This document shows, in pieces, positions 4,994 to 50,505 of a DNA stretch of 64,000 nt. A model generated the notes under the pieces. It was not told the origin of the DNA and ran no database searches. It saw nothing but the letters and a program-made list of their open reading frames with translations. The stretch's first letter is position 1, and each line of letters opens with the position of its first letter. The translations under genes were made by a program, and so were the position numbers. This DNA comes from Acanthococcus lagerstroemiae (taxonomy: Eukaryota; Arthropoda; Insecta; Hemiptera; Eriococcidae). Location of the stretch: NCBI GenBank assembly GCA_031841125.1, contig CM063108.1, forward strand, positions 26,587,399-26,651,398, given 5' to 3'.

Positions 4994-5633
4994 TTCGCTG
5001 TATTCGGTTTTACGGGTAATTTTTGGAGTCTGTCCCACCTGGTGCGACCGATGAGGTAGCAAGAGCGTAGGATAAGCAACGGTTGGCTCGGAATTCACCT
5101 TTTCTAATTAAAGCCACCGAATAGGGTAAAAATACAGTTTTATTTATTCAAAGTGTTGCTAATAGAAAATAACGTCGTAAAAGTTTCTCAACTGAAAAAG
5201 CACGGGAGCTTAAATTTGGTCCAGATTAAAACTCGGCAGCGATATTCGAAATCAGCGACACAAAATCACCCCTATTTCGATGCTTCGTGCAATTTTTCGC
5301 CGGACAAGCTAAATTCGTATTACGACAGTGCTTTGGAAGGGGTCGGATAAAAATCTGAGGCGATATTCGAAATCAGCGACTCAGAGCTTGGTTGGCTATC
5401 CTGTCGAACAAATTGACTTTAGAATCTCGTAAAGAATTCGGAACTTGAGGCAAACTAGAGTAACCGGAATTAGCCCCTCCCTCGTGAAGCCTGAATGATT
5501 TAGGGGGAGGGAACATAACTATTAAAATGAATTCTGGAACCCAGGTAAAAAAGCTGCAGCATATCTAACGACAAATGCTATGAAAGTAAAAAGGTGGTTA
5601 TGATCTGGAAAATTATGGCACCAGGTTGAGTCC

Positions 5634-7248: not shown

Positions 7249-7372
7249 ACAGGGACTAAACTTGGACATCGTTGCGGACTAAACCCGGATATAGCTTCGG
7301 ACTAAACTCGGCCTTTAACGTGGGACTAAACTCGGTTAAAAAAAAAGGTCAACGGGACTAAACTCGGAACCG
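7249..7372 (+). repeat. Short tandem array of GGGACTAAACTCGG
   Basis: Five copies of GGACTAAAC(T/C)(T/C)GG separated by 8-18 bases of unrelated sequence (starts near 7252, 7277, 7300, 7325 and 7357). The spacing is about 25 bp, rising to about 32 bp before the last copy. The core is conserved while the linkers vary. Confidence 0.75.
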
Positions 7373-8868
7373 CCCATATAGCAATGGACCTGACGTTCTC
7401 TAACTCAGTTCAAATTCCAGTCTTATCACCTAGAACTATTTCCGATGTTTGAGTCCAGTTGGAAAGTTACCAGATTAATAGATACATGGATATATATAGA
7501 TAGAAAAGCGGAGTGCATAGCACCACATAGGAGACAGGCACGGTGACTATCAACGTGAAGGAGTTAAACCACAAAGCGACCTGAAGCATGGTTTTCCCTG
7601 ACTTTTCCAGGTTTTCCAAACCAATTTTTCCAGTTGTCCAGACCCTTCAAATACAAATTACACGGGGTCAAAATTTTTTCGAACATCGTGAGTGGCGAAT
7701 ATCGTCAATCACTCCACAAACTTTTTTTTTACTACCGTGTGCTAATGAATCTGTGGCAGAGGGGGTGTAAACATTTAATGATGGAAATGGAAACACGCTC
7801 TATAGGGTGCAGCGTGGTACAGTGTCAATTAAAGACTTCATAGATTTTTTTTGTGTAACTTAATGCCAACTGTGAAGGGGGGAGGGCTGAAAGAATAAAA
7901 TTCTCAAACTGATTTGTAGGGTTTCGAGGTCGCTGTATTTGATTTTAGGGGTAATTTTTGGATCCTGTCCCTCCTGGTGCAACCAATGAGGTAGCAAGAG
8001 CGTAGGACAAGCAACGGTTGACTCGGAATTCACCTGCTCTAATTAAAGCCACCGAATAGGGTAAAAATACAGTTTTATTTATTCAAAGTGTTGCTAATAG
8101 AAACTAACGTCGTAAAAGTTTCTCAACTGAAAAAGCACGGGAGCTTAAATTTGGTCCAGATTAAGCCTCGGCAGCGATATTCGAAATCAGCGACACAAAA
8201 TCACCCCTATTTCGATGCTTCGTGCAATTTTTCGCCGGAGAAGCTAAATTCGTATTACGACCCTGCTGACAAAACTCCGCCTTCGAAGAGCGCGTTTTTG
8301 AAAAAAACGGGCGTTTTAACTAAAAAATCACTTAGAACCTTGAAAATTTTACTGGCAGTTTTAACAACTTTTTATTTACGCGCGCATTAGCCATTGCTTT
8401 TTGAAAACATTCAACGTGCGAATTTCTTCATGTTACAAAAATGGGCGTTTTAGAGAAGTAAAGATGGGAAAATTTGCCGGGCGTTTCATCAGTTCTTAAT
8501 TTACGCGCAGATTCATAAGAAATGTTCAGCGCGCGTATTCTCTCATATCACTAGAATGCCCCTTTTTTAAGAAAGAGAGCGTTTTCTGTAATTGTTATAC
8601 ATAGGAAATCGTACGTTTTGCGCTCATGGTATTATACGCGCGAATATGAACAGGTTCGAAAACGCCCGAATTATTATAATTTCGTGGCGTTTTCCACATA
8701 CATCTGCGCGCGCAGATTAAATTATTGATAACGTGAAACCGTTACTGGTTATCTGTGTGGCTGTGACTTGTAGCCTGAAATGCTGAAATTGTGAAACGAA
8801 AAACAACAGTCGTGGTTTATTTAAGTTTCCATGTATTATTCTGTGATGCATATCATTTAAATAACCAT

Positions 8869-8896
8869 ATGGAGGATGATTCTCAGAACGAACACG
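8869..8896 (+). CDS. Possible first exon of the transposon-borne gene
   Basis: ATG at 8869-8871 followed by nine acidic/polar codons (MEDDSQNEH) and a consensus donor G|GTAAGA (GT at 8897-8898, phase 1). It cannot join directly to the exon at 10542, which needs phase 0, so another exon must lie between if both belong to one gene. Assigned mainly on the start codon plus donor. Confidence 0.3.
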
Positions 8897-10541
8897 GTAA
8901 GAACTATGTATAATACGTACAATATCTTTAAAATGTGTAAGTAAGTGCGATATTAGATTGCAATGTCGATTCATTATAGTGAGTACGAATTAGAGAGAAA
9001 ATTGATTTCTAAGAGCACGTACATAATATCGCCCTGTATAAGTTGATACTCGTATTTTGTCCTGCAACGCTGAAGAACTTGTGTGTTTCAGGGATCTTCA
9101 GTATGCATATTTTGAATAACAACATCTCCCACATTCAGATTCGTCCTGTTAATTCGTTACATAGAAGTGGTATAGAAATAGTGGGAGTCTAGGAAACTGC
9201 CGTTTGTAAAAAGAGTTTCAAATTACATACTTCGGCATAGAAATGAGATAGAAACATGAAACAAAATCTGGTTTATATATAGTACCTAGAATGAATGGTT
9301 CCAACCCTGATCGTCATTGCGTGTAGGAATGGCAATTCCTCGCTCATCTGCTTGCTCTTTTATAGCGAACTAGGGTTTTTAATCTGCTCACTGCTCCAAT
9401 ATGTTGCTCCGGATTGTTCTTTATCAGTAAAGAGAGAAGTGTCGCAGCGATCAGGTTTGAGATCAACTATTCCTTGCTTGATTCACGAATAACGAATAGA
9501 ACATAGAACAACTGATTTGTACCAAGAACGAAAGAAGATATTGTGTTTGTACGGGTATCCTGACTAAGACTTCTTATAAAAGTTTGTACTTTGTAGTTCG
9601 GTGCATTTTTCGCTGAGTGTTATGATAGAAGAAATCTGAAATTGAACATATGGAACAAATTTAACTAAGATGGTCGGGTTTCATACCGTTTTTAACACCA
9701 AAAATTTTGCAATAAGGTTTTTGACTTTTTGTAATTGAGAATAATTATCACTGACCATGAGGTCTCGGATTATGTAGCTGATCTAGGTACACCAACGAAA
9801 ACCTTTTGTTTTTGAACGGTATATCAAAAAAATAAAAGTGTGTAACGTTGATTCATAATACGTATTGTGGGAAAAGAAAAAACTGAGTGACCTGAAAAGA
9901 AATCTGTGAATATAACGTTGCTAGATATCTGTGAAGACGAAATACTGCGATCGCTTGTTGAAATACAGAACCTGAGTGTTACTCATATCCACGCTGTCCT
10001 CTTTCTTTCAACAATCATAAATCTGATCCTTCCATTTGATGATGTACATGCAGAATTCTGTGCGTTGAAATACACGCGGTTCTAGCTGTCTTAGGACAGA
10101 TACAGCAGGAAACTCCTCTTTCTTAATAGTATGAACCATGCATTACTCTATTATACCCTGCGATTTATTCAAATTCAACTGAATTCTTTTACAAATGAGG
10201 ACCTTTCTGGCAGAAGCTTGTGTAGTACACAGTTAAACTTGAACCAGAATTACAGAGCAGTGAGCAGATGGTTTTTGCTCGGAATAATTTCGCGAACTGC
10301 TTTTTTCATGAACCAACTCATTTAATTTGCTCCTGCTCGGAGTCGACCAACGTTATTGCTTGCGTACAGGTGAATTAAATTAACCCTTCCGCATATAATT
10401 AACCAGGGTGACGCGCCTACCTGGTAAAACAGGAGCGTTTTAGTTTGAGTAAACCTGACAACTTGATACGAAACTACGAGCGTCAACTTATACTGAGCGA
10501 ACTATATTTTCGGCCAAAGCGACACAATCGTCTTCTTACAG

Positions 10542-10870
10542 TTTGAGTACAACTTTCATTCTGGCTTGGAGCAAGAGGTAGCCAACTGGCTGAAATACTG
10601 GCAGAATGCGATAACCAGGGCGAAAAAGCTAGAAGAGAGAAAGGAAGCAGGAGGTGCAACACAATTTTTAAATTGTTCATTCATTCATTCTTTTCTTTCC
10701 AGCCGCCAAAAAGAACCTTGAAAACAGTGATGAACAACATGAAGTGGTGTCAAGTCAATCGTCATTGGAGCAGCGTACTGGTAATATTAGGACGCTGTAT
10801 TGCTGTATTTTTTTCTATTCTAATTTTAAAAGATTCATTTATACTTTCCAATTTCAATTCAGAACACTGA
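10542..10870 (+). CDS. Three 3' exons of a small spliced gene inside the TIR transposon
   Basis: Exon a, 10542-10653: acceptor CTTCTTACAG, 37 codons + 1 base, donor GAG|GTGCAA. Intron of 49 bases. Exon b, 10703-10780: acceptor TTTCTTTCCAG, 78 bases, donor ACTG|GTAATA. Intron of 82 bases. Exon c, 10863-10870: acceptor ATTTCAATTCAG, ending in TGA at 10868-10870. The phases (1, then 1) join without a stop, giving about 65 residues. Exon a encodes an amphipathic, helix-like stretch (EVANWLKYWQNAIT, KKLEERKEAG) and exon b is acidic/Ser-rich. Family not recognised; it is neither DDE nor RT. It could be the element's own accessory protein or a captured host fragment. Upstream exons are uncertain. 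Confidence 0.5.
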
Positions 10871-11818
10871 TACACGCAATTTATAGTATATTAAATACAC
10901 CTGACATTTCTTTTTATCATTACCACTCTTCATTTAATATTTATTGCAGTTTTCTTATGTTTAAAATTAGAAGAAGAAAAAAATGAATGCGTCACTGTAT
11001 AAGTATTAAAATTTATAGTGCACAATGTTTATTTCTTCGTCGTTTTCAATTCTTAAAATTTTTTATCATTGTTGTAATGGACATTTTAGTTGTTTTATGG
11101 TTGACTAGTTTATGAAAAATGTTTACCTACATTTTTGAAACGATGTGTGTTCCTATGCTTATTTTCATTTATTTTTTTTTACCAATTTGTTTTTCTATTA
11201 ATATTAAATATAATTTTTGCATATTTAATTTCAATTCAATTATTTTTTCTTAAAAAGTACTGAAAAGAAGCGCTTTTGAAAATTATTTGTGAGGGCGTTT
11301 TTTTAAGAAACAATCGGAAGGAGCGTTTTTAAATTCATTAGAAAAGAGGCGTTTTACAAACGTCACATAAACGCTCTCATATAAAGAACGCTTGGTTACT
11401 TGGCGTTTTTTGATACGTTGAAAATCGCGCGTTTTCTGGTAAGTTGAAAAATCGCGCGGTTTCATCGGTCTCACATTATCTCCCGCGTTCCGCCCGGCGG
11501 TATTTTGCCCGTAGGGGACAGTGCTTTGGAAGGGGTCGGATAAAAACCTGAGGCAATATTCGAAATCAGCGACTCAGAGCTTGATTGGCTATCCTGTCCA
11601 AAAAATTGACTTCAGAATCTCGTAGAGAATTTGGAACTTGAGGAAAACTAGAGTAACCGAAACTAGCCCCTCCCTCGTGGAGACTGAATGGTTTAAGAGA
11701 AGGGAACATAACTACTAAAATGAATTCTGGAACCCAGGTAAAAAAGCTGCAGCATATCTAACGGCAAATGCTATGAAAGTAAAAAGGTAATTAAAATCTG
11801 GAAAATTATGGCACCAGG

Positions 11819-17824: not shown

Positions 17825-18902
17825 ACGCCCATTCCTGAGCATAGGTCTCCCCTATCTTTTGTCAGATCCCTCTGTTTAGTGCCTCTCTTCTACATGACGT
17901 TCCTAGTTTCCTTTCTATGTCTTATAATCATCTCGTTGCCGGTCTACCCCTCCTTTTTCATTGCCATATGGTGTCCAATCAGTTAATCTCTTTGTCCACG
18001 AGTCTCTTTTCATTCTAGCCAAGTGTCCCGCATATCTACTGTCTCAAGTATGTCTTTTGTTCTTGTCTTACCCCTAATTTCCGTATTCCTGATTCTGTCC
18101 TTCATTCTTATTCCCAGTAAGCTGCTCTCCATATTTCGCTGTATGACCTGAAGATTATTTGCTTGTTATTTTGTCATAGTGACCAGGTTTGTGCTCCGTA
18201 CGCGAGACTTGGCAGTACACATGATTCTAAAATTTTTATTTTGAATGCCACTTTCATTTTCCCTTTGAAAATCTGTCTTAGTGTCCAATAACCCCTCAAT
18301 GCTTTCTTCCTTCTTTCGTGTAGTTCTTTGTTTAGTCCCTGATCAAATGATATAATCCGTTCTAAGTACGTATATTCGTTTACTCTTTCACTTTCCATCC
18401 CATCCACTTTGAGATTTTCTTTAAATCTATTGCTCATGTATTTCGTTTTGGTTAAATTTATCTGGAACCCAGGTTCTTCACATGCCCTTGTGAGGTCTTT
18501 CACCATTTCTGTTACTTCCTCCCAACTGGTTCCTATCAGCACAATGTCGTCCGCAAATCTCAGATTACTTAGTTTTTTCCCGTCTATATTCATCCCATGG
18601 TCTTCCCAGTTTAGTTTTTTAAATGCCCATTCCAACACTGCGTTAAACAGATTGGACGACAGAGGATCTTCCTGTGCGACATCTTTGTTAATTTGGAATG
18701 TTTCGCCCGATTTATCTAATTTTACATGAGCAGTGGCATTCTCATGAAAGTTTTTTATTATTTTCACTATTCTAGCATCGATTTCCTGTTCTACTAATGC
18801 TAGTAGAGGGCAATCATGTTTCACTGTATCGAAGGCCTTTGGTAGAATAGCTCCTCCTAAAACCTGCCTGTTCCTCCGGTTGCTGCCAATATAGTTAATC
18901 AT
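17825..18902 (-). pseudogene. RTE-clade LINE reverse transcriptase, 3' part
   Basis: An uninterrupted frame of 242 codons (18902-18174) holds RT motifs: FDTVKHD near the start, QEDPLSSNLFNAVLEW, LRFADDIVLIG (catalytic FADD), then EYTYLERIISFDQ and LPSLAYGAQTW. These match the order in RTE elements. Below 18174 the match continues through stops and frame changes (ILESCVLPSLAYG into decayed QRNMERSLLG-like, DRIRNTEIRGKT-like) to about 17825 (AQEWAS). The endonuclease half is absent: 5'-truncated. QEDP replaces the usual QGDP. Non-functional. Confidence 0.85.
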
Positions 18903-20134
18903 GAACCCTGGTTTTTATGATTTTCATAAACACTTTTCTCACGTCCGAAAAAAAAAAAATAATATAATTAACTTGCTACTACAAGAATAAAAATGTACAG
19001 CGTGTGCCATGAAAATCCCCCCCCCCCATGTTTTCCTTATGAAGAAGTCAGATCGGAAAGGGACAAATGGGCATCTTCTAGGGCTAAGGTTCAACTTATA
19101 CTGAGGTTAATAAATTTCTCTTGCTTCAAGAGAAGCGCCGGTGAGACGGTCCCAACTTCGGAATCTCAAATGGAAACATTGATCAGTTTTGCCCATTCGA
19201 ACTGGTCAGATTTGAAATTTGGAGCCCAATTCGGGTTCCCATTAAGTGCCTGATTAATTTTCGAAAATGGTGACCACAAGAAAACCCATTTCCGATACGC
19301 TGTTCAATTTTTACCAGGAAATGCCCACTGGCCCGTTTGAAAGGGTCAAATTTACATGACGGATTCAAATCAGGATTGGATCATAAGAGTCAAAATTTTC
19401 GAACTCATCAACCAAAGAAAACTCTATTCCGATAACTAGTTTCACTTTCTCTGCAATGTGCAACTAGTCAGATAAAAAGAGGAAAGGTCGAATTTGGGGC
19501 CAAATCGGAGGTATATTGAAATATAATTACATTTTGAACGCAGAAATCCAAAAATGCCATATTTCGATAATTTTCCAATGTTTCCATTTATAATTTCAAA
19601 GTTGGTATTACATCTCAGTCCTCCCTTCCCTTCCGGGGAGCAGGGCTGTACATCTACTGATATGGTAAGAACAAAAATGTTTCCAAGTGTTGAAGCGAAA
19701 TTAGTCAGTCAGTCAAGATTGGTGTCCATCTATCCTTCTGTCGGCTGCTAGGCAGACAAGAAGCTAGACTGACAGGAGCCATCTAAGCCTTGAAGACAGA
19801 CAAGAGACGAAGCACCCAGTGCCAAGTCGGCAAGCTGGGGGTAGGCACAAGCGAAGCAAATGCTGGAACGGACTGTGACTAGACAAATGGAAACTCCAGG
19901 GCGTTGGCACCTACGTGGGAGCCGACCGGAAGAACTGCTAGCACTAGTCAGCAAAGCAATCAGAGGGAAAGTCCCCTAGTATTCCACCTAAAAGGTTGAC
20001 ATCTCCACGGCTCCAACAGAAACACGTAGTGTAACATTTTATATGCTTTCCCCTAATAAAAAAAATGTCCATGGACATTTCTATTAACAACACGGCTGAA
20101 GACTGCAGCCGCGCAAAGCGTAGCAAAGATCAAG
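18903..20134. other. No recognisable gene
   Basis: Contains poly-A/C runs near 18948 and 19018, AT-rich unique-looking DNA, and a GC-richer patch at 19740-19990 (GACAGACAAGA, GGGAGCCGACCGG) resembling a retroelement UTR but not assignable. Confidence 0.4.
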
Positions 20135-20258: not shown

Positions 20259-20387
20259 ATCAATGAGCACATGGCTGAAGGAAAAATAAATTCCCATGGA
20301 AATATCAATCACTGAACTGAATTGTCACCATGAAGCACTAAATCATATGGACTGGCTCCTGGCTTTGTGTGGGGGCCCTCTGTTCTA

Positions 20388-20590
20388 ATTTTGCTCTCAA
20401 CCCGAGCCCTGGAATCCACTCTTTCGAGCATTACCTCAGAGGCGTTAGGGAGGCTGTTAGGACTGTCTTGGCCCTCCAATTTTCTTGCCGAAAAACCGGC
20501 CTAGGTCGAAATGTAGCGAGTTGCTACGTGAGCTCGAACCCGGGACCTCCGGATTCCGAGACCAGCGCGCTATCCACTCAGCCAACGCTT
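20388..20590 (-). mobile_element. SINE-B copy (tRNA-derived)
   Basis: The minus-strand head begins around 20590 with tRNA-like GCTGAGTGGATAGCGCGCTG (A box) and GGTCCCGGGTTCGAGCTC (B box). The body runs down to about 20388 (GGGCTCGGGTTGAGAGC). Same family as 25771-25993, 32781-32998 and 50224-50429; all four lie on the minus strand. The outermost head (normally GTCTGGTTGGC) is degraded here. Confidence 0.85.
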
Positions 20591-25770: not shown

Positions 25771-25993
25771 CTCTCTTTTTCTAATTTGATCTCCACACGA
25801 GTCCTGGAATCCGCCCTTTCGAGCATTACTTCAGAGACGACGGGGAGGCCGTTAGGGCTGTCTTAGCCCTCTTCCCTTCTGCTCGAAAAACCGGCCTAGG
25901 TCGGAAATTCTGGCGAGCTGCTACGTGGGCTCGAGCCCGGGACCTCCGGATTCTGAGACCAACGCGCTATCCACTCGGCCAACCAGACCTCGT
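25771..25993 (-). mobile_element. SINE-B copy with 12-bp target duplication
   Basis: The minus-strand head starts near 25988 (GTCTGGTTGGCCGAGTGGAT, B box GGTCCCGGGCTCGAGCCC) and the body runs to 25771. Flanked by AACTTCAAGAAG at 25759-25770 and 25994-26005, which fixes it as a retroposed insertion into the gag remnant. Confidence 0.9.
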
Positions 25994-32780: not shown

Positions 32781-32998
32781 TCTCTCTTTTTCTAATTTGC
32801 TCTCAACCCGAGCCCTGGAATCCGCCCTTTCGAGCATTACTTCAGAGACGGCGGGGAGGCTGTTAGGGCTGTCTTAGCCCTCTTCCCTTCAGGCCGAAAA
32901 ACTGACCTAAGTCGAAATCTGGCGAGTTGCTACGAGGGCTCGAACCCGGGACCTCCGGATTCCAAGACCAACGCGCTATCCACTCGGTCAACCAGACA
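32781..32998 (-). mobile_element. SINE-B copy nested in SINE-A
   Basis: The minus-strand head starts near 32998 (GTCTGGTTGACCGAGTGGAT, B box GGTCCCGGGTTCGAGCCC). The body runs down to 32781 and ends in an AAAAGAGAGA tail. Shows that SINE-B was active after this SINE-A copy had inserted. Confidence 0.9.
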
Positions 32999-33001
32999 GG
33001 A

Positions 33002-40131: not shown

Positions 40132-40309
40132 TGTTTGCGGTAAAAAAGAGGAAAAGCACGAAGTGAAGTAACAGCGAATATATTTTCTCAACTTAACTGC
40201 ACAAAATCGGTATAGATACTACATACATAACTGCACGGTAATGAACAAACGTGATCGATAATACCCGGCGGGAAGGAGAGAACCTTGTCAGTCAGTTCAT
40301 GTTTCAACA
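40132..40309 (-). repeat. 3' LTR of the BEL/Pao element
   Basis: 178 bp, TGTTTGCGGT..TTCAACA on the plus strand. It contains the stop codon of the integrase frame (40304-40306), so pol ends just inside the LTR. Confidence 0.95.
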
Positions 40310-41527
40310 CTCCCCCCGGGATGAACCTTGGGGTTCATTGAGATCAGATAAGGGTAACCGGACGAGGGAACGGATGTCCCGCGGAAGGCTGCCGGCGCTC
40401 GTGCGCACGGTGGCAGTTCGAACCTGATCGTTTCTGTCGGGAAAGACTTCTTCAACGATGGCCATCGGCCAGGTGTTCGGCGCTGACGCGTCCTTTAGCA
40501 GCACTATCTGCCCCGGTTGGATGTTTGGAGCCGCTTCCGTCCACTTCTCCTTCCTCTGGAGCATGTTCAGATAGTCGGCGCGCCAGCTTTTCCAGAAGGC
40601 TTTAATGACCGTGCGCAATAAAATATATCGCTTCATCAGCGACAACCTCGGTTCTTCGGGCTCAGGCACGATATTGGAAGGAGAGCCGATTAAAAAATGA
40701 CTCGGCGTCAAAACGAAATTACTAGAATTCAGCGTGGACCGTCTGTAGCACAGTGGGCGCGAATTCAGAATTGCGACGACCCGGGCAAACAACGTGGCGT
40801 ACTCTTCGAAATTTAGAGCCGTTGTTCCGATGACACGCACCAAGTGAAACTTGGCCGCCTTCACGGCAGCTTCCCAAATACCGCCTCGGTGCGGCGCTCG
40901 AGGGGGGTTAAAGATCCAACGGATTTTTTTTTGTCCGGCGAAAGCTTGGAGATGGTCATCAGCCAAATCTAGATGACGGCTGGCACCGACAAAATTTGTG
41001 CCGCGGTCGGAATACAAAACTGCTGGTAGTCCACGGATACTCGTAAAACGGTGTAAGGACAATAAAAATGCGGTAGTCGAAAGTTCGGATACAGCTTCAA
41101 TATGTACGGCTCGGGTAGCCATACAGACAAAAATACACGCGTACAATTTATTAAATTTGACGGATCGGTGTCCAGTGCACTTCACATTGAATGAACCGCA
41201 GAAATCAAGACCGGTGTGAGCAAATGGGCGGGATGGAGTAACGCGCGCCGCTGGGAGCTGACCCAAAATTTGCTTATAGGTTTCAGCGCGATAACGAGCG
41301 CACACCACACAAGCTTTAATAACGGATTTGACAAGGTTTGTAAGGCCTCCACAAACCCAAAACTCAGCTTGAACGAAGGGGATAATGAACGATTTTCCAG
41401 CGTGGAAGTATTCGGTATGTAAATGACGGACATAGAGCAACATAAAATGGCTGTTACGCGGAATTATTATAGGGTGCTTCATTGAAAACGAGAACTCAGC
41501 ATTTTGAATACGGCCGCTGACGCGCAA
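40304..41527 (-). CDS. BEL/Pao pol C-terminal frame: integrase
   Basis: 407 codons from an internal ATG. H/C zinc-binding start (RHLHTEYFHAG, then CVVC at about residue 73-76). Core with DDE-type residues: Asp in HTGLDFCG (~108), Asp in YSDRGTNFVG (~174), Glu in RGGIWEAAVKAAK (~219). The C-terminal DUF5641-type domain (~300-400) has GQIVLLKD, NTWPMAIVEEVFPDRN and RSLVRLP. The ATG is not a natural start: homology extends upstream in this frame to about 41640 (REGKPVPVKSPLRSLDPF), where it meets the end of the longer frame, so a single frame change splits pol. The stop is inside the 3' LTR. Confidence 0.9.
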   Translation of the reverse strand: MRVSGRIQNAEFSFSMKHPIIIPRNSHFMLLYVRHLHTEYFHAGKSFIIPFVQAEFWVCGGLTNLVKSVIKACVVCARYRAETYKQILGQLPAARVTPSRPFAHTGLDFCGSFNVKCTGHRSVKFNKLYACIFVCMATRAVHIEAVSELSTTAFLLSLHRFTSIRGLPAVLYSDRGTNFVGASRHLDLADDHLQAFAGQKKIRWIFNPPRAPHRGGIWEAAVKAAKFHLVRVIGTTALNFEEYATLFARVVAILNSRPLCYRRSTLNSSNFVLTPSHFLIGSPSNIVPEPEEPRLSLMKRYILLRTVIKAFWKSWRADYLNMLQRKEKWTEAAPNIQPGQIVLLKDASAPNTWPMAIVEEVFPDRNDQVRTATVRTSAGSLPRDIRSLVRLPLSDLNEPQGSSRGEC

Positions 41528-44500
41528 AATACCACCGGTGTCGATGAACGGATCAAGACTACGTAGAGGACTCTTGACTGGAACCGGCTTCCCCTCGCGT
41601 AAGCGCGCAATTTCGGCGAAAAGAAGTTTCCCTGTAAAATACGAATGGCTGCAATGCGTGCACTAATAAAGCAATCGGTTAAGGAAGTGGAATACTTAAC
41701 TTTTTGCGACCGAGTCATCTTCCACTTGCGCACGAACTGTATGACTCGGCCGATCACTGCAATAAGGTGTTTATAATTGGAAAATCTATTGATCAGCGGA
41801 CTGGACTCTGCGTTGACTGTAGCAACTCCCAGGCAGATTTGCGCATCATTTTGGACTGAACTACGCAGCTCGAGAGAAGTTTCGGCACCACTAGGCTTAG
41901 CTACTGAACTGATAAAATCAACATTAGATAAAAAAGTAGGGCCGTGAAACCAAAGATTAGATTTCACCAGGAGAGAGGCGGAAATCCCGCGGGTGGCCAG
42001 ATCAGCCGGATTTTGGCCAGTCCGAACGTGTGACCAGTGTTGAAATGGAAATTTGGCAGAAACTTTCTGAACACGGTTCTTCACAAATACGTTCCACGGA
42101 GCTTCAGGTTTAGCCAACCAGGCTAAAACCACTTCGGAATCGGAGAAAAGATAGACGTTTGAATGTTCGATCTTCAAAATTGGCATGACACGCTCAGCGA
42201 GCTCGAAGAGTAACAAGGCACCCAGCAACTCCAATCGAGGGATGGTGAGCGACTTCACTGGCGCCAACCGGGTTTTGGCGCAAATAAATTGGACGGTAAC
42301 AGAACGATCCTCGTTGATGCAGCGTAAATAAACAACGGCACAGTAGGCTCTTTCAGATGAGTCACAGAAGCCTATCAATTGGCGCAAGGTTGGCTTAGCC
42401 GAACTATATGGGCGAGATATGCGCAAATCCATCAATCTTGGTAATTCAGCTAGATAAAGTTGAGCGTCGGAATGAAGCTGCGCGGAGATGAAGTTGTCCC
42501 AGTTGATTTCTTCTCTCCATACACGTTGGATGAAAAGTTTACCTCGGATAGTAAACGGCGAAGCAATACCGAGGGGGTCAAAGACCTTGGCTACCTCGGA
42601 CAGCAATTGCCGCTTGGTTATGGAGTCCGCATCAACAAGATGAGACTTGAACGCTCGAATACCTAGCTCGTCAGATTTAGGATCCCAAATTAATCCTAAA
42701 ATACTAATTGCTGACGTGTCGCCGAACACGTACGGTATATTCCTTTCGATTAAGTCGGGTGGTATATTGGAAAGTACATCCTCGGAATTCGACTGGTACT
42801 TGCGAAGATTGAAGCCTGCCTGTTTTAACTCTTTATGAATCACCTTTTGGATCGTGATCGCTTCTTCAGTAGTGGTTGCACCTGTAATCAAATCGTCCAT
42901 GTAGAAGTGATTTCTAATCACATCGGCTGCAGAACCATTTGTCCTCTGGACGCAATCGGCTATCTCTCGGAGACACCTCGTAGCGATAAATGATGCGGGT
43001 GCTGTCCCATAGGTTAGGGTATTCAACTGGTACTCGGTAATAATTGATGCTGGCGACGATCTCCAGATGATTTTTTGGTATTTTCGGTCACTGGGATGAA
43101 CTAACACGCACCTATACATTCGTGAAATATCTGCCGTGAAGACAATCGGGTAGGTGCGAAAGCGCAACAATGCATCGGACAATTCGGGCTGAATCTGGGG
43201 GCCAACTGCTAAAACATCATTCAGCGAGTGACCTGAAGACGTTTTAAAGGATGCATTAAAGACAACGCGCAATTTTGTAGTCGAACTATTTGGACGTAAC
43301 ACTGCGTGATGCGGAATGAAATAACCATTGTTACTGGGTTCAACTTTGGACATATGACTGAGCTCCTCGTACTCGGTCATAAATTCAACGTATGCACGGC
43401 GAACATCTACTTGAGACCTGGCTTCGGAGCGTAAGAACAATGACATTGCGCTAGCGCGGTTAGTTGCTAGCGCTGTAGGTGACGATTTAAACGGTAACCG
43501 CACAACAAATTGGCCATTGGTTGCGCGTGTAGTATTCTCCGCAAAGTGACGTTCACAAAAGTCGGAGTCTTCAGTGGTACATTTGGTAGGTAAAATGCTT
43601 TCTGTCTCCCAGAATCGGGTGAGTTGATCCTCGACGTTAACAGCGGCCAAACAGCAAACTTGTGGTTCAGTAGCTGCAGGGGGTACCTCTGCGCGCGGAA
43701 AGACTCCATTCAGAGTCCACCCAAACTGGGTGCGACGGAGGGTGAGCAAATCGATTGTGGTGCTTTCGTTAATAATACACCTTTCAACATATTCCGCACC
43801 TAACAATATGTCGATGCGGGGAATAGTCGGATGTTGGCAATAAAAAGCTGAATCGGCGAGTTGAAATTCGCGAACTTGGCGCAAATTATCATTCCATTCC
43901 AAGGAATTAATGGAATACGGGATCGCTGCAGCGGGAATAACATCGGCAACGATTTGGATCTCGAATTCGTTAATGCGAGAGTAGAGATTTACAGCGCATG
44001 AACGGGGCGCTGCGATGTTTTGGAAGCCAATTCCACGAACTGGTTGACTTCCGGTGTTTTTAAATGTTGGAAGGCGCAGGCGCTTAACGAAGGCGTCTGA
44101 AATTAAAGTTGCTTGGGAACAGTTGTCCAACAAAATTCGAGCGGTCCCGACAATTTTGCCACATGTAAACCGAACGGTTGCGGACGGAAGCACCACAAAC
44201 TTCTTAACGGATGGCTGCTGTGGGACTGAGACGTTGGAAGTAAATTTGGCAGGCGATGAATCAGAAGATTCAGGTGCTGGGACTGACGAAAATATCGTTG
44301 GTGTCGCCGGTTGCGACTGTAGGGATGAGCTGTCTGGCGCAGCTTTTGGAATATGGAGCAAAGAATGATGCTTCAGTTGGCAAATTTTACACAACTTATA
44401 GGATGGACATGCATTGCTAGTATGCGCCTTGGAGAAGCAATTCGTACACATTCGGTTCGCGCGAATTACCTGTAGTCGACTAGATGGCGACTTGGATTGG

Positions 44501-45579
44501 AATGATGGACACTCAATGAGCAGATGTTGCTCTTTGCACACAACACAAGCTGCTTTTGAAGCTAAAAACGTTTTCTTCGGGTCAGCAGGCTTGAGAGACA
44601 CTTGTTTTGGTTGAGTGGAACTCGGCTGTTCCTCGAACTTCCTTGCCTCAACATTGTTGGCACGAGTCTCACAAAATTTGATTAAATTGGAAAATTTGAT
44701 GTAAGCGGAATTATCGGTAATGTTGTTGTTGAAATCGGCACGGATTTTCGGGTCTAGTTTAGTATAGACGACATAAGCTAGAATCGATGACCAATGGTCA
44801 GTTTTTTCGCCGCAGGCGCGAAGTCCGCGAACTGCAATGTCGATGCGATCGAGTAGCGCACGAAGACCGGAATCGGATTTGATCTTTTCAACGGCAAAAA
44901 GATCGGTGAAATGGGTGTGGATAATTACCCGCTTGTTGTCGTACTTAGCAAGTACGCGACTCCAAGTTTCCTTGTATCCATCGTCGGACACGCTGATATT
45001 GGATAGGGTGAGAGCTGCATCGGCGACAAGACTCTCTTTCAAGTAATGCATTTTCCTAACTGATGGAATGGTGTCTTCGTTATGAACGAGGTTTTCAAAC
45101 ATGGCTTTGAAATCGAGAAATTTACGGACATCTCCATTAAACGTTGGAACGTTGATTTTCGGGAGTTTGGCGGATCCGGGCGAAGCTGAGGCAGAAAAAT
45201 CGGAAACGGAAGAGTTAAGCGAATCCCGCTTAACTTGACCCTCAAGCTTACGACGGGCAACGGAGCATAAACCAATGGCGCGGTTTATGTTTGAAAATTG
45301 GAAATCGCGATCCTTGAAGATGTCTTCCTCTTTGGCAGCGTCGTCGGCGACAGCGTCCATCCATTTGGAATACATCTCGGAAAATTTAGCCTTATTTTCA
45401 AGGAGCGATTGACGGAGGACTTCTAACATCTCGACGGTCTCGATAGTCGGAGTTGACTTGGCCAAACGGTTGACCTCCTCGACATCGCGGTTATAGTCGC
45501 GCTTCAGGATCCGGCGGGTCCTTTCCACTGCGACTAGAACTGATTTGGACGCCGCTTCTTCGGTAGCCATTATTGACAC
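41479..45579 (-). CDS. BEL/Pao gag-pol: capsid, zinc knuckles, protease, RT, RNase H
   Basis: 1,366 codons without a stop. Residues ~1-130 form a charged, coiled-coil-like start; ~140-310 a DUF1759 gag domain (LPKINVPTFNGD); three Cys/His knuckles at ~345-410 (CVVC, CTNC, CKIC); an A17-type aspartic protease near 483 (LLDNCSQATLIS); RT ~750-950 with FTADISRMY and the catalytic YMDD (~893-896); RNase H region ~1070-1200 (FSDSEVVLAWL). A second Met lies at codon 4 (MATEE). The last ~60 residues are out of frame with the family: the real path shifts at about 41640-41690 into the integrase frame. Whether this shift is a mutation or programmed cannot be told. Confidence 0.93.
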   Translation of the reverse strand: MSIMATEEAASKSVLVAVERTRRILKRDYNRDVEEVNRLAKSTPTIETVEMLEVLRQSLLENKAKFSEMYSKWMDAVADDAAKEEDIFKDRDFQFSNINRAIGLCSVARRKLEGQVKRDSLNSSVSDFSASASPGSAKLPKINVPTFNGDVRKFLDFKAMFENLVHNEDTIPSVRKMHYLKESLVADAALTLSNISVSDDGYKETWSRVLAKYDNKRVIIHTHFTDLFAVEKIKSDSGLRALLDRIDIAVRGLRACGEKTDHWSSILAYVVYTKLDPKIRADFNNNITDNSAYIKFSNLIKFCETRANNVEARKFEEQPSSTQPKQVSLKPADPKKTFLASKAACVVCKEQHLLIECPSFQSKSPSSRLQVIRANRMCTNCFSKAHTSNACPSYKLCKICQLKHHSLLHIPKAAPDSSSLQSQPATPTIFSSVPAPESSDSSPAKFTSNVSVPQQPSVKKFVVLPSATVRFTCGKIVGTARILLDNCSQATLISDAFVKRLRLPTFKNTGSQPVRGIGFQNIAAPRSCAVNLYSRINEFEIQIVADVIPAAAIPYSINSLEWNDNLRQVREFQLADSAFYCQHPTIPRIDILLGAEYVERCIINESTTIDLLTLRRTQFGWTLNGVFPRAEVPPAATEPQVCCLAAVNVEDQLTRFWETESILPTKCTTEDSDFCERHFAENTTRATNGQFVVRLPFKSSPTALATNRASAMSLFLRSEARSQVDVRRAYVEFMTEYEELSHMSKVEPSNNGYFIPHHAVLRPNSSTTKLRVVFNASFKTSSGHSLNDVLAVGPQIQPELSDALLRFRTYPIVFTADISRMYRCVLVHPSDRKYQKIIWRSSPASIITEYQLNTLTYGTAPASFIATRCLREIADCVQRTNGSAADVIRNHFYMDDLITGATTTEEAITIQKVIHKELKQAGFNLRKYQSNSEDVLSNIPPDLIERNIPYVFGDTSAISILGLIWDPKSDELGIRAFKSHLVDADSITKRQLLSEVAKVFDPLGIASPFTIRGKLFIQRVWREEINWDNFISAQLHSDAQLYLAELPRLMDLRISRPYSSAKPTLRQLIGFCDSSERAYCAVVYLRCINEDRSVTVQFICAKTRLAPVKSLTIPRLELLGALLLFELAERVMPILKIEHSNVYLFSDSEVVLAWLAKPEAPWNVFVKNRVQKVSAKFPFQHWSHVRTGQNPADLATRGISASLLVKSNLWFHGPTFLSNVDFISSVAKPSGAETSLELRSSVQNDAQICLGVATVNAESSPLINRFSNYKHLIAVIGRVIQFVRKWKMTRSQKVKYSTSLTDCFISARIAAIRILQGNFFSPKLRAYARGSRFQSRVLYVVLIRSSTPVVFCASAAVFKMLSSRFQ

Positions 45580-45824
45580 GAACAGGGTCCGGTTTGGCGA
45601 TTATTGACGACGTGTCGGCATTAACAAGAACCGCATTTGCAAATTTGCGAACAAGAAAACCGAAACAATTAACGTTAACGGAATTTATCGCACTATCATT
45701 CAGAAATGTCGGAAAGCATGGTGCATGAACTTGGTTTGAAAACTTCAAACGGTTAAAAAAAACACTTTTCACTTTAATACTTTCGGATGTCTGGTTAAAA
45801 AGGACACCCGGCGCGGAGGACCAT

Positions 45825-46002
45825 TGTTTGCGGTAAAAAAGAGGAAAAGCACGAAGTGAAGTAACAGCGAATATATTTTCTCAACTTAACTGCACAAAAT
45901 CGGTATAGATACTACATACATAACTGCACGGTAATGAACAAACGTGATCGATAATACCCGGCGGGAAGGAGAGAACCTTATCAGTCAGTTCATGTTTCAA
46001 CA
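45825..46002 (-). repeat. 5' LTR of the BEL/Pao element
   Basis: 178 bp, identical to the 3' LTR but for one base. Transcription would start here and run toward lower coordinates. Confidence 0.95.
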
Positions 46003-50160: not shown

Positions 50161-50223
50161 GATAAGAGCCAGAAGCGTAGCCAACCTAGCGTTTTGGTCT
50201 TAATTATAGGGATGGAGGTCTTC

Positions 50224-50429
50224 TAATTTTTCTCTCAACCCAAACCCTGGAATCCGCCCTTTCGAGCATTACTTCAGAGACGTCGGGGAGGCTGTTAGGG
50301 CTGCCTTACCCCTCTTCTCGTCTTCCCGAAAAACCAGCCTAGGTCGAAATGTAGCAAATTGCTACGTGGACTCGAACCCGGGACTTCCGGATTCCGAGAC
50401 TAGCGCGCTATCCACTCGGCCAACCAGAC
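50224..50429 (-). mobile_element. SINE-B copy
   Basis: Minus-strand head from 50429 (GTCTGGTTGGCCGAGTGGAT; B box GTCCCGGGTTCGAGTCC), body down to 50224. Both flanks carry versions of one ~65-bp sequence (AGCCAGAAGCGTAGCCAACC at about 50166; AGCCAGAGGCGTAGCCAGCC at about 50430), each ending ATGGAGGTCTT. Confidence 0.87.
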
Positions 50430-50505
50430 AGCCAGAGGCGTAGCCAGCCTAGTGTTCAAAATGGGGGGGGGGGGTCTGGTCTTGACTAAAGGAATGGAGG
50501 TCTTA

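Follow-up and report, generated by a model that had tools for sequence, protein, structure and literature searches.

What interrupts a repeat at positions 8261–11516 of a 64,000-nucleotide stretch of scale insect DNA (hereafter the window), and where does the spliced reading frame inside the interruption come from? We consider it reasonably probable that the interruption is a non-autonomous DNA transposon with terminal inverted repeats (TIRs), most likely of the CCC-ended, TRC-like kind discussed below, and that a genomic fragment of a Rabaptin-5-type gene sits inside it. Transposons that capture genes in broadly this manner have been described before. Here, we examine the boundaries of the element, its termini and possible family, and its cargo, weighing other readings of each.

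An insertion defined by its empty site

A host repeat of about 630 bp occurs twice in the window, once whole (copy A) and once split by the element (copy B). The features that define the insertion are as follows.

4995–5625, + strand: host repeat copy A, uninterrupted, the empty site (repeat comparison within the window)
7930–8260 (left part) and 11517–11818 (right part), + strand: host repeat copy B, interrupted by the element (match to copy A)
8259–8260, no strand: left target-site duplication, GA (2-bp overlap of the copy A matches)
11517–11518, no strand: right target-site duplication, GA (2-bp overlap of the copy A matches)
8261–8281, + strand: left TIR, CCCTGCTGACAAAACTCCGCC (16 of 21 positions equal to the right TIR)
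11496–11516, − strand: right TIR, CCCTACGGGCAAAATACCGCC (16 of 21 positions equal to the left TIR)

Comparison with the empty copy sets the bounds of the element, which measures 3,256 bp. The left half of copy B (7930–8260) is 95% identical to positions 4995–5325 of copy A and the right half (11517–11818) 92% identical to positions 5324–5625, and the two halves share exactly 2 bp of copy A (GA at 5324–5325). Because both halves match copy A with this overlap, 8261–11516 is interpreted as an insertion with a 2-bp duplication; a 3-bp duplication, GAC, is formally possible since the first base of the element is C. The coordinates, the exact empty site and the target duplication of 2–3 bp given in a first-pass annotation of this DNA are all borne out by these comparisons.

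The inverted ends coincide with the junctions that the copy A comparison had defined independently. At a TIR length of 21 bp, adopted from the first-pass annotation, CCCTGCTGACAAAACTCCGCC and CCCTACGGGCAAAATACCGCC are alike at 16 of 21 positions (binomial P 3.7e-6), a match equalled by 1 of 200,000 random sequence pairs drawn from the window, and both TIRs start with CCC, in agreement with the imperfect, CCC-initial repeats described earlier. The locus is repeat-rich, with 2.9 kb separating copies A and B, a setting in which an assembly join or a segmental duplication might imitate a transposed element; the inverted ends fall precisely where the collinearity of the repeat is broken, and a 2-bp duplication accompanies them, which makes such an origin extremely improbable. 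The transposable element at 8261–11516 is genuine.

No third copy of either end is present in the 64-kb window at up to three mismatches to the IUPAC consensus of the TIRs. Searches of viral_contigs, which as a virus collection is little informative here, returned 0 matches both for the exact IUPAC TIR pattern and for 20 bases taken from the host repeat. Upstream of copy B, at 7252–7368, lies a short array of five GGGACTAAACTCGG-like units spaced 23–32 bp apart.

Termini, subterminal motifs and candidate family

Inside its TIRs, the element carries short motifs concentrated toward both ends.

8292–8693, + strand: left subterminal GCGTTTT array (exact copies, five on + and one on −)
8374–8714, + strand: second left-end motif, ATTTACGCGCGCA-like, four copies, 77–100% identical to the first
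11295–11435, + strand: right subterminal GCGTTTT array (five exact copies, oriented as in the left array)

On the + strand, GCGTTTT occurs 13 times in the window, 11 times inside the element and twice outside; the − strand has one copy inside and four outside. Apart from a lone + strand copy at 10435, the copies in the element cluster near its two ends, and 11 of the 12 exact internal copies share one orientation, at the left and right ends alike. Given this mostly shared orientation, the mirror symmetry of the left and right ends does not extend past the TIRs. The crowding of GCGTTTT-type motifs at both ends had been noted correctly; the accompanying count of about 16 requires looser matching than the 12 exact copies.

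Plant CACTA elements bear CACTA termini, and such a terminus is found at neither end of the element. The first-pass annotation had likewise called the architecture CACTA-like with a terminus that is not CACTA, a puzzle for which the CCC-ended animal elements called TRC (Transposons Related to CACTA), as presented in PMC1636069, now offer a candidate answer. In that paper, DeMarco et al. (2006) report CACTA-related elements from Schistosoma (SmTRC1), Tribolium castaneum (CCCTAGTAGCACCG...) and Aedes aegypti, with TIRs beginning CCC and 2-bp direct repeats, the latter found in 7 of 14 Schistosoma copies; the CCC core is put forward there as a suggestion resting on three elements. The element shares with these CCC at both TIRs, a 2-bp direct repeat (GA, with GAC possible) and the TIRs themselves, 21 bp here and 10–54 bp in TRC elements. 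Moreover, CCCTA begins both the Tribolium TIR and the right TIR of this element, and some SmTRC1 copies are likewise located in repeats (PMC1636069).

Several features set the element apart from published TRC elements. At 3.26 kb it is smaller than those in PMC1636069, which measure about 4.7 to 9.2 kb, it probably carries a host-gene fragment, which they do not, and its left and right GCGTTTT arrays run in the same direction, a paper-wide absence of the word ‘subterminal’ marking PMC1636069. Furthermore, unlike in TRC elements, no Transposase_21 reading frame is recognised: the six frames of the element, read with X at stop codons, match no Pfam family at E≤1, including Transposase_21 (PF02992). 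This agrees with the earlier remark that no DDE transposase is visible. The scan is insensitive and also missed the Rabaptin-like exon described below and an H_lectin match, so short or decayed transposase remnants may have escaped it. Weak Pfam matches from seven separate reading frames among 50 listed, namely H_lectin (E 0.0094), Transposase_20 (0.13), Neurochondrin (0.11) and DUF717 (0.23), all fall below their curated cut-offs and were set aside as chance.

A missing Transposase_21 is as expected in a non-autonomous copy, and the sequence features are consistent with a TRC-like, non-autonomous element. Because a recognisable Transposase_21 gene is lacking, we use ‘TRC-like’ and not membership proper, an assignment based on the termini and target-site duplication of a single insertion with no second copy in the window. 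These same circumstances leave room for a TIR element of some other or undescribed superfamily that has CCC ends by chance, whether or not its duplication is the 3-bp GAC: there is no transposase to classify by, the one insertion has a duplication of ambiguous length (2 versus 3 bp), and the cargo could still be Rabaptin-derived. piggyBac-like CCC elements require TTAA and Tc1/mariner elements TA, and the insertion site, ACGAC, has neither. The CCC core is known from three published elements (PMC1636069), a narrow base that favours another superfamily, whereas CCC combined with a 2-bp duplication is consistent with TRC; on balance, we regard a different superfamily as possible but unlikely. 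The other first-pass suggestion, a family not yet described that carries unusual genes, is likewise less supported, CCC termini and 2-bp duplications having already been reported for TRC elements in PMC1636069.

A Rabaptin-like cargo

The interior of the element contains the following predicted coding features.

8869–8896, + strand: candidate 5′ coding exon, ATG, MEDDSQNEH plus one base (from sequence only, good donor at 8897)
10542–10653, + strand: exon a, Rabaptin-like (FEYNFHSGLEQEVANWLKYW...KEAG), matching mouse RABEP1 residues 128–164
10654–10702, + strand: predicted 49-bp intron between the Rabaptin-like exons, with weak donor and strong acceptor, the Rabaptin alignment running ungapped across it
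10703–10780, + strand: exon b, Rabaptin-like only up to 10725 (AAKKNLEN), the remainder (SDEQHEVVSSQSSLEQRT) without match
10863–10870, + strand: last exon of the first-pass annotation, two codons and a stop, predicted from the reading frame

Joining 10542–10653, 10703–10780 and 10863–10870 gives a 65-residue open frame. According to approximate weight matrices, the acceptors at 10701 (8.7 bits) and 10861 (6.0 bits) are good and that at 10540 (3.2 bits) is middling; the donors at 10654 (−0.8 bits) and 10781 (1.5 bits) are poor, with 14.7% and 4.7% of the GTs in the window scoring at least as high. Three exons with correct phases and good splice sites had been proposed: the frame holds, as do the acceptors at 10701 and 10861, and the two donors do not. 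The donor at 8897 reaches 5.1 bits on the same approximate matrices, equalled or exceeded by 0.4% of GTs in the window, and the phase of the exon preceding it is incompatible with a direct join to the exon at 10542.

The first-pass annotation described the product as an unfamiliar helical, acidic protein, a label that does not survive for its first 45 residues. In hmmscan, the only Pfam family matched by the spliced product at E≤1 is Rabaptin (PF03528, E 0.0025, residues 1–46), at 17.1 bits against a curated cut-off of 26.7. Product residues 1–45 align without gaps to residues 128–172 of mouse RABEP1 (P0093, 827 aa), straight across the predicted intron, with a raw BLOSUM62 score of 88; shuffled sequences average 40 and peak at 74, and 0 of 5,000 reach 88. 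Exon a alone scores 67, which 0 of 5,000 shuffles reach (maximum 52), and exon b alone scores 32, which is uninformative on its own. By eye, FH, LEQE, W, Y and NLEN are among the matched positions, correctly spaced. Additionally, a profile of six vertebrate Rabaptins finds the spliced product at E 0.0009 and unspliced exon a at E 0.047, the best of 2,207 frames in the window; no other frame of the window is Rabaptin-like, the next of the 2,207 lying at E 8 with the same profile.

Among Rabaptins, the strength of the match varies. A human Rabaptin query yielded 7,991 scored candidates and 1,189 proteins at E≤0.001, and the best 120 of these 1,189 were compared with the product (115 named, all vertebrates, and 5 without names). 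Their scores range from 68 to 88, the lowest belonging to a fish homologue (P0002) with just 68. No close relative of the product was found by direct search among proteins of 36–113 aa, nor, with the product set in the human Rabaptin frame, among 14 candidates of about 326–1,037 aa (none at E≤10).

Could the cargo instead be the element’s own gene, encoding a small TNPA-like accessory protein (coiled-coil or DNA-binding) of a family that is autonomous or semi-autonomous, with a convergent likeness to Rabaptin? Subterminal motif arrays would need a binding protein, and the candidate first exon at 8869–8896 with its good donor at 8897 is a plausible start for such a gene. The best PDB sequence matches of the product are three unrelated, generic coiled-coil proteins (E 0.06 to 0.46), and the sub-threshold PF03528 score and the low score of the fish homologue would also fit convergence. 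Coiled-coil composition does not account for the observed 88, however: none of 153 windows of Rabaptin scores above the maximum of 57 when compared with the remainder of that protein, the maximum over 5,000 shuffles is 74, and masking the matched region of Rabaptin leaves the product with a score of 37. Taken with the spacing of the matched FH, LEQE, W, Y and NLEN positions (judged by eye) and the restriction of the Pfam match to Rabaptin alone, these controls make a convergent gene of the element itself unlikely.

We therefore take the similarity of the first 45 residues to Rabaptin as homology, and the exon pair is probably a captured fragment, which recasts the ‘unfamiliar’ gene as a probable piece of an endosome protein gene. 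Because the match is a 46-residue fragment below the curated Pfam cut-off, a Rabaptin gene is not claimed; compared with Rabaptin-5/RABEP1 (PF03528), the cargo covers only about 45 residues and is not a gene copy. The similarity ends after NLEN (10725), with no match for the rest of exon b or the last exon. A frame-shifted continuation past NLEN (MKWCQV resembling MKKAQE, by eye) was dropped as too weak, and no further convincing Rabaptin exon was found in the element at a threshold of E≤20, the next best hit (E 2.3) lying on the opposite strand.

Probable gene capture, proposed mobilisation and genomic surroundings

The idea that a non-autonomous element captured a host gene, one of two options in the first-pass annotation, gains support from the combination of a TIR element, no recognised transposase domain and a Rabaptin-like exon pair. 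Comparable elements are known in animals. A survey of 100 animal genomes (Tan et al. 2021, PMC8277862) reports 370 Pack-TIRs, spread over 55 of them, with 323 of the 370 belonging to hAT or Tc/Mariner; it records none in the reference genomes of insects or birds, and fly populations contributed one family, Ssk-FB4. Like those Pack-TIRs, the present TIR element encloses what is probably a host-gene fragment, and the TIRs and target-site duplication of one element flank non-transposon sequence. Unlike most of them, it has TRC-like ends and a cargo matched at the protein level only. Parental copies were accepted by Tan et al. at a BLAT minIdentity of 90 (PMC8277862). An intron in the cargo is implied by the ungapped Rabaptin alignment and predicted splice sites. 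Soybean CACTA elements with gene fragments (PMC1947982) are similar in being CACTA-type carriers; here the host is an animal and the termini are CCC. Rabaptin capture by a transposable element is unmentioned in the titles and abstract openings of six open PubMed Central papers containing both terms. If further copies exist, the element would extend animal gene capture, so far mostly hAT and Tc/Mariner according to PMC8277862, by a CACTA-related example.

Under the captured-fragment reading, an unseen transposase of TRC/EnSpm type would move the element in trans, binding its TIRs together with the subterminal GCGTTTT repeats. The element may have acquired an intron-bearing piece of a host Rabaptin gene through DNA-level copying, and the Rabaptin-like stretch reads through only with the predicted intron removed. 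Gap filling or the switching of replication forks, routes that PMC8277862 proposes for animal Pack-TIRs, could account for such copying, either before or after the element landed at its present locus. The weak donors and the end of the similarity in mid-exon suggest that the fragment is decaying, and it would now yield at most a short chimeric transcript. A more ambitious scenario, in which an active animal CCC-type CACTA family spreads an expressed chimeric gene (the MEDDSQNEH first exon plus the Rabaptin exons) that has gained a role, appears very unlikely; were it true, conceivable roles would include that of a dominant-negative Rab5-effector fragment or that of an accessory coiled-coil protein serving the transposon.

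The window as a whole is rich in repeats. No RNA family reached its gathering score and no tRNA was found with the bacterial settings of the search tool. The frame at 549–1109, whose product has a MULE transposase domain (PF10551, E 2.8e-10), appears to be left over from a Mutator-like element, and a reverse-transcriptase frame (PF00078, E 4.7e-12) lies on the − strand at 18174–18914. A dispersed repeat of 200–220 bp is present in four copies (20383–20586, 25771–25988, 32782–32999 and 50221–50431) that are pairwise 84.5–91% alike. Finally, the − strand at 40132–46002 holds a BEL/Pao retrotransposon with Pfam Peptidase_A17, DUF1759, RVT_1, rve and DUF5641 domains; its 178-bp terminal repeats (40132–40309 and 45825–46002) are 99.4% identical, so its insertion is probably recent.
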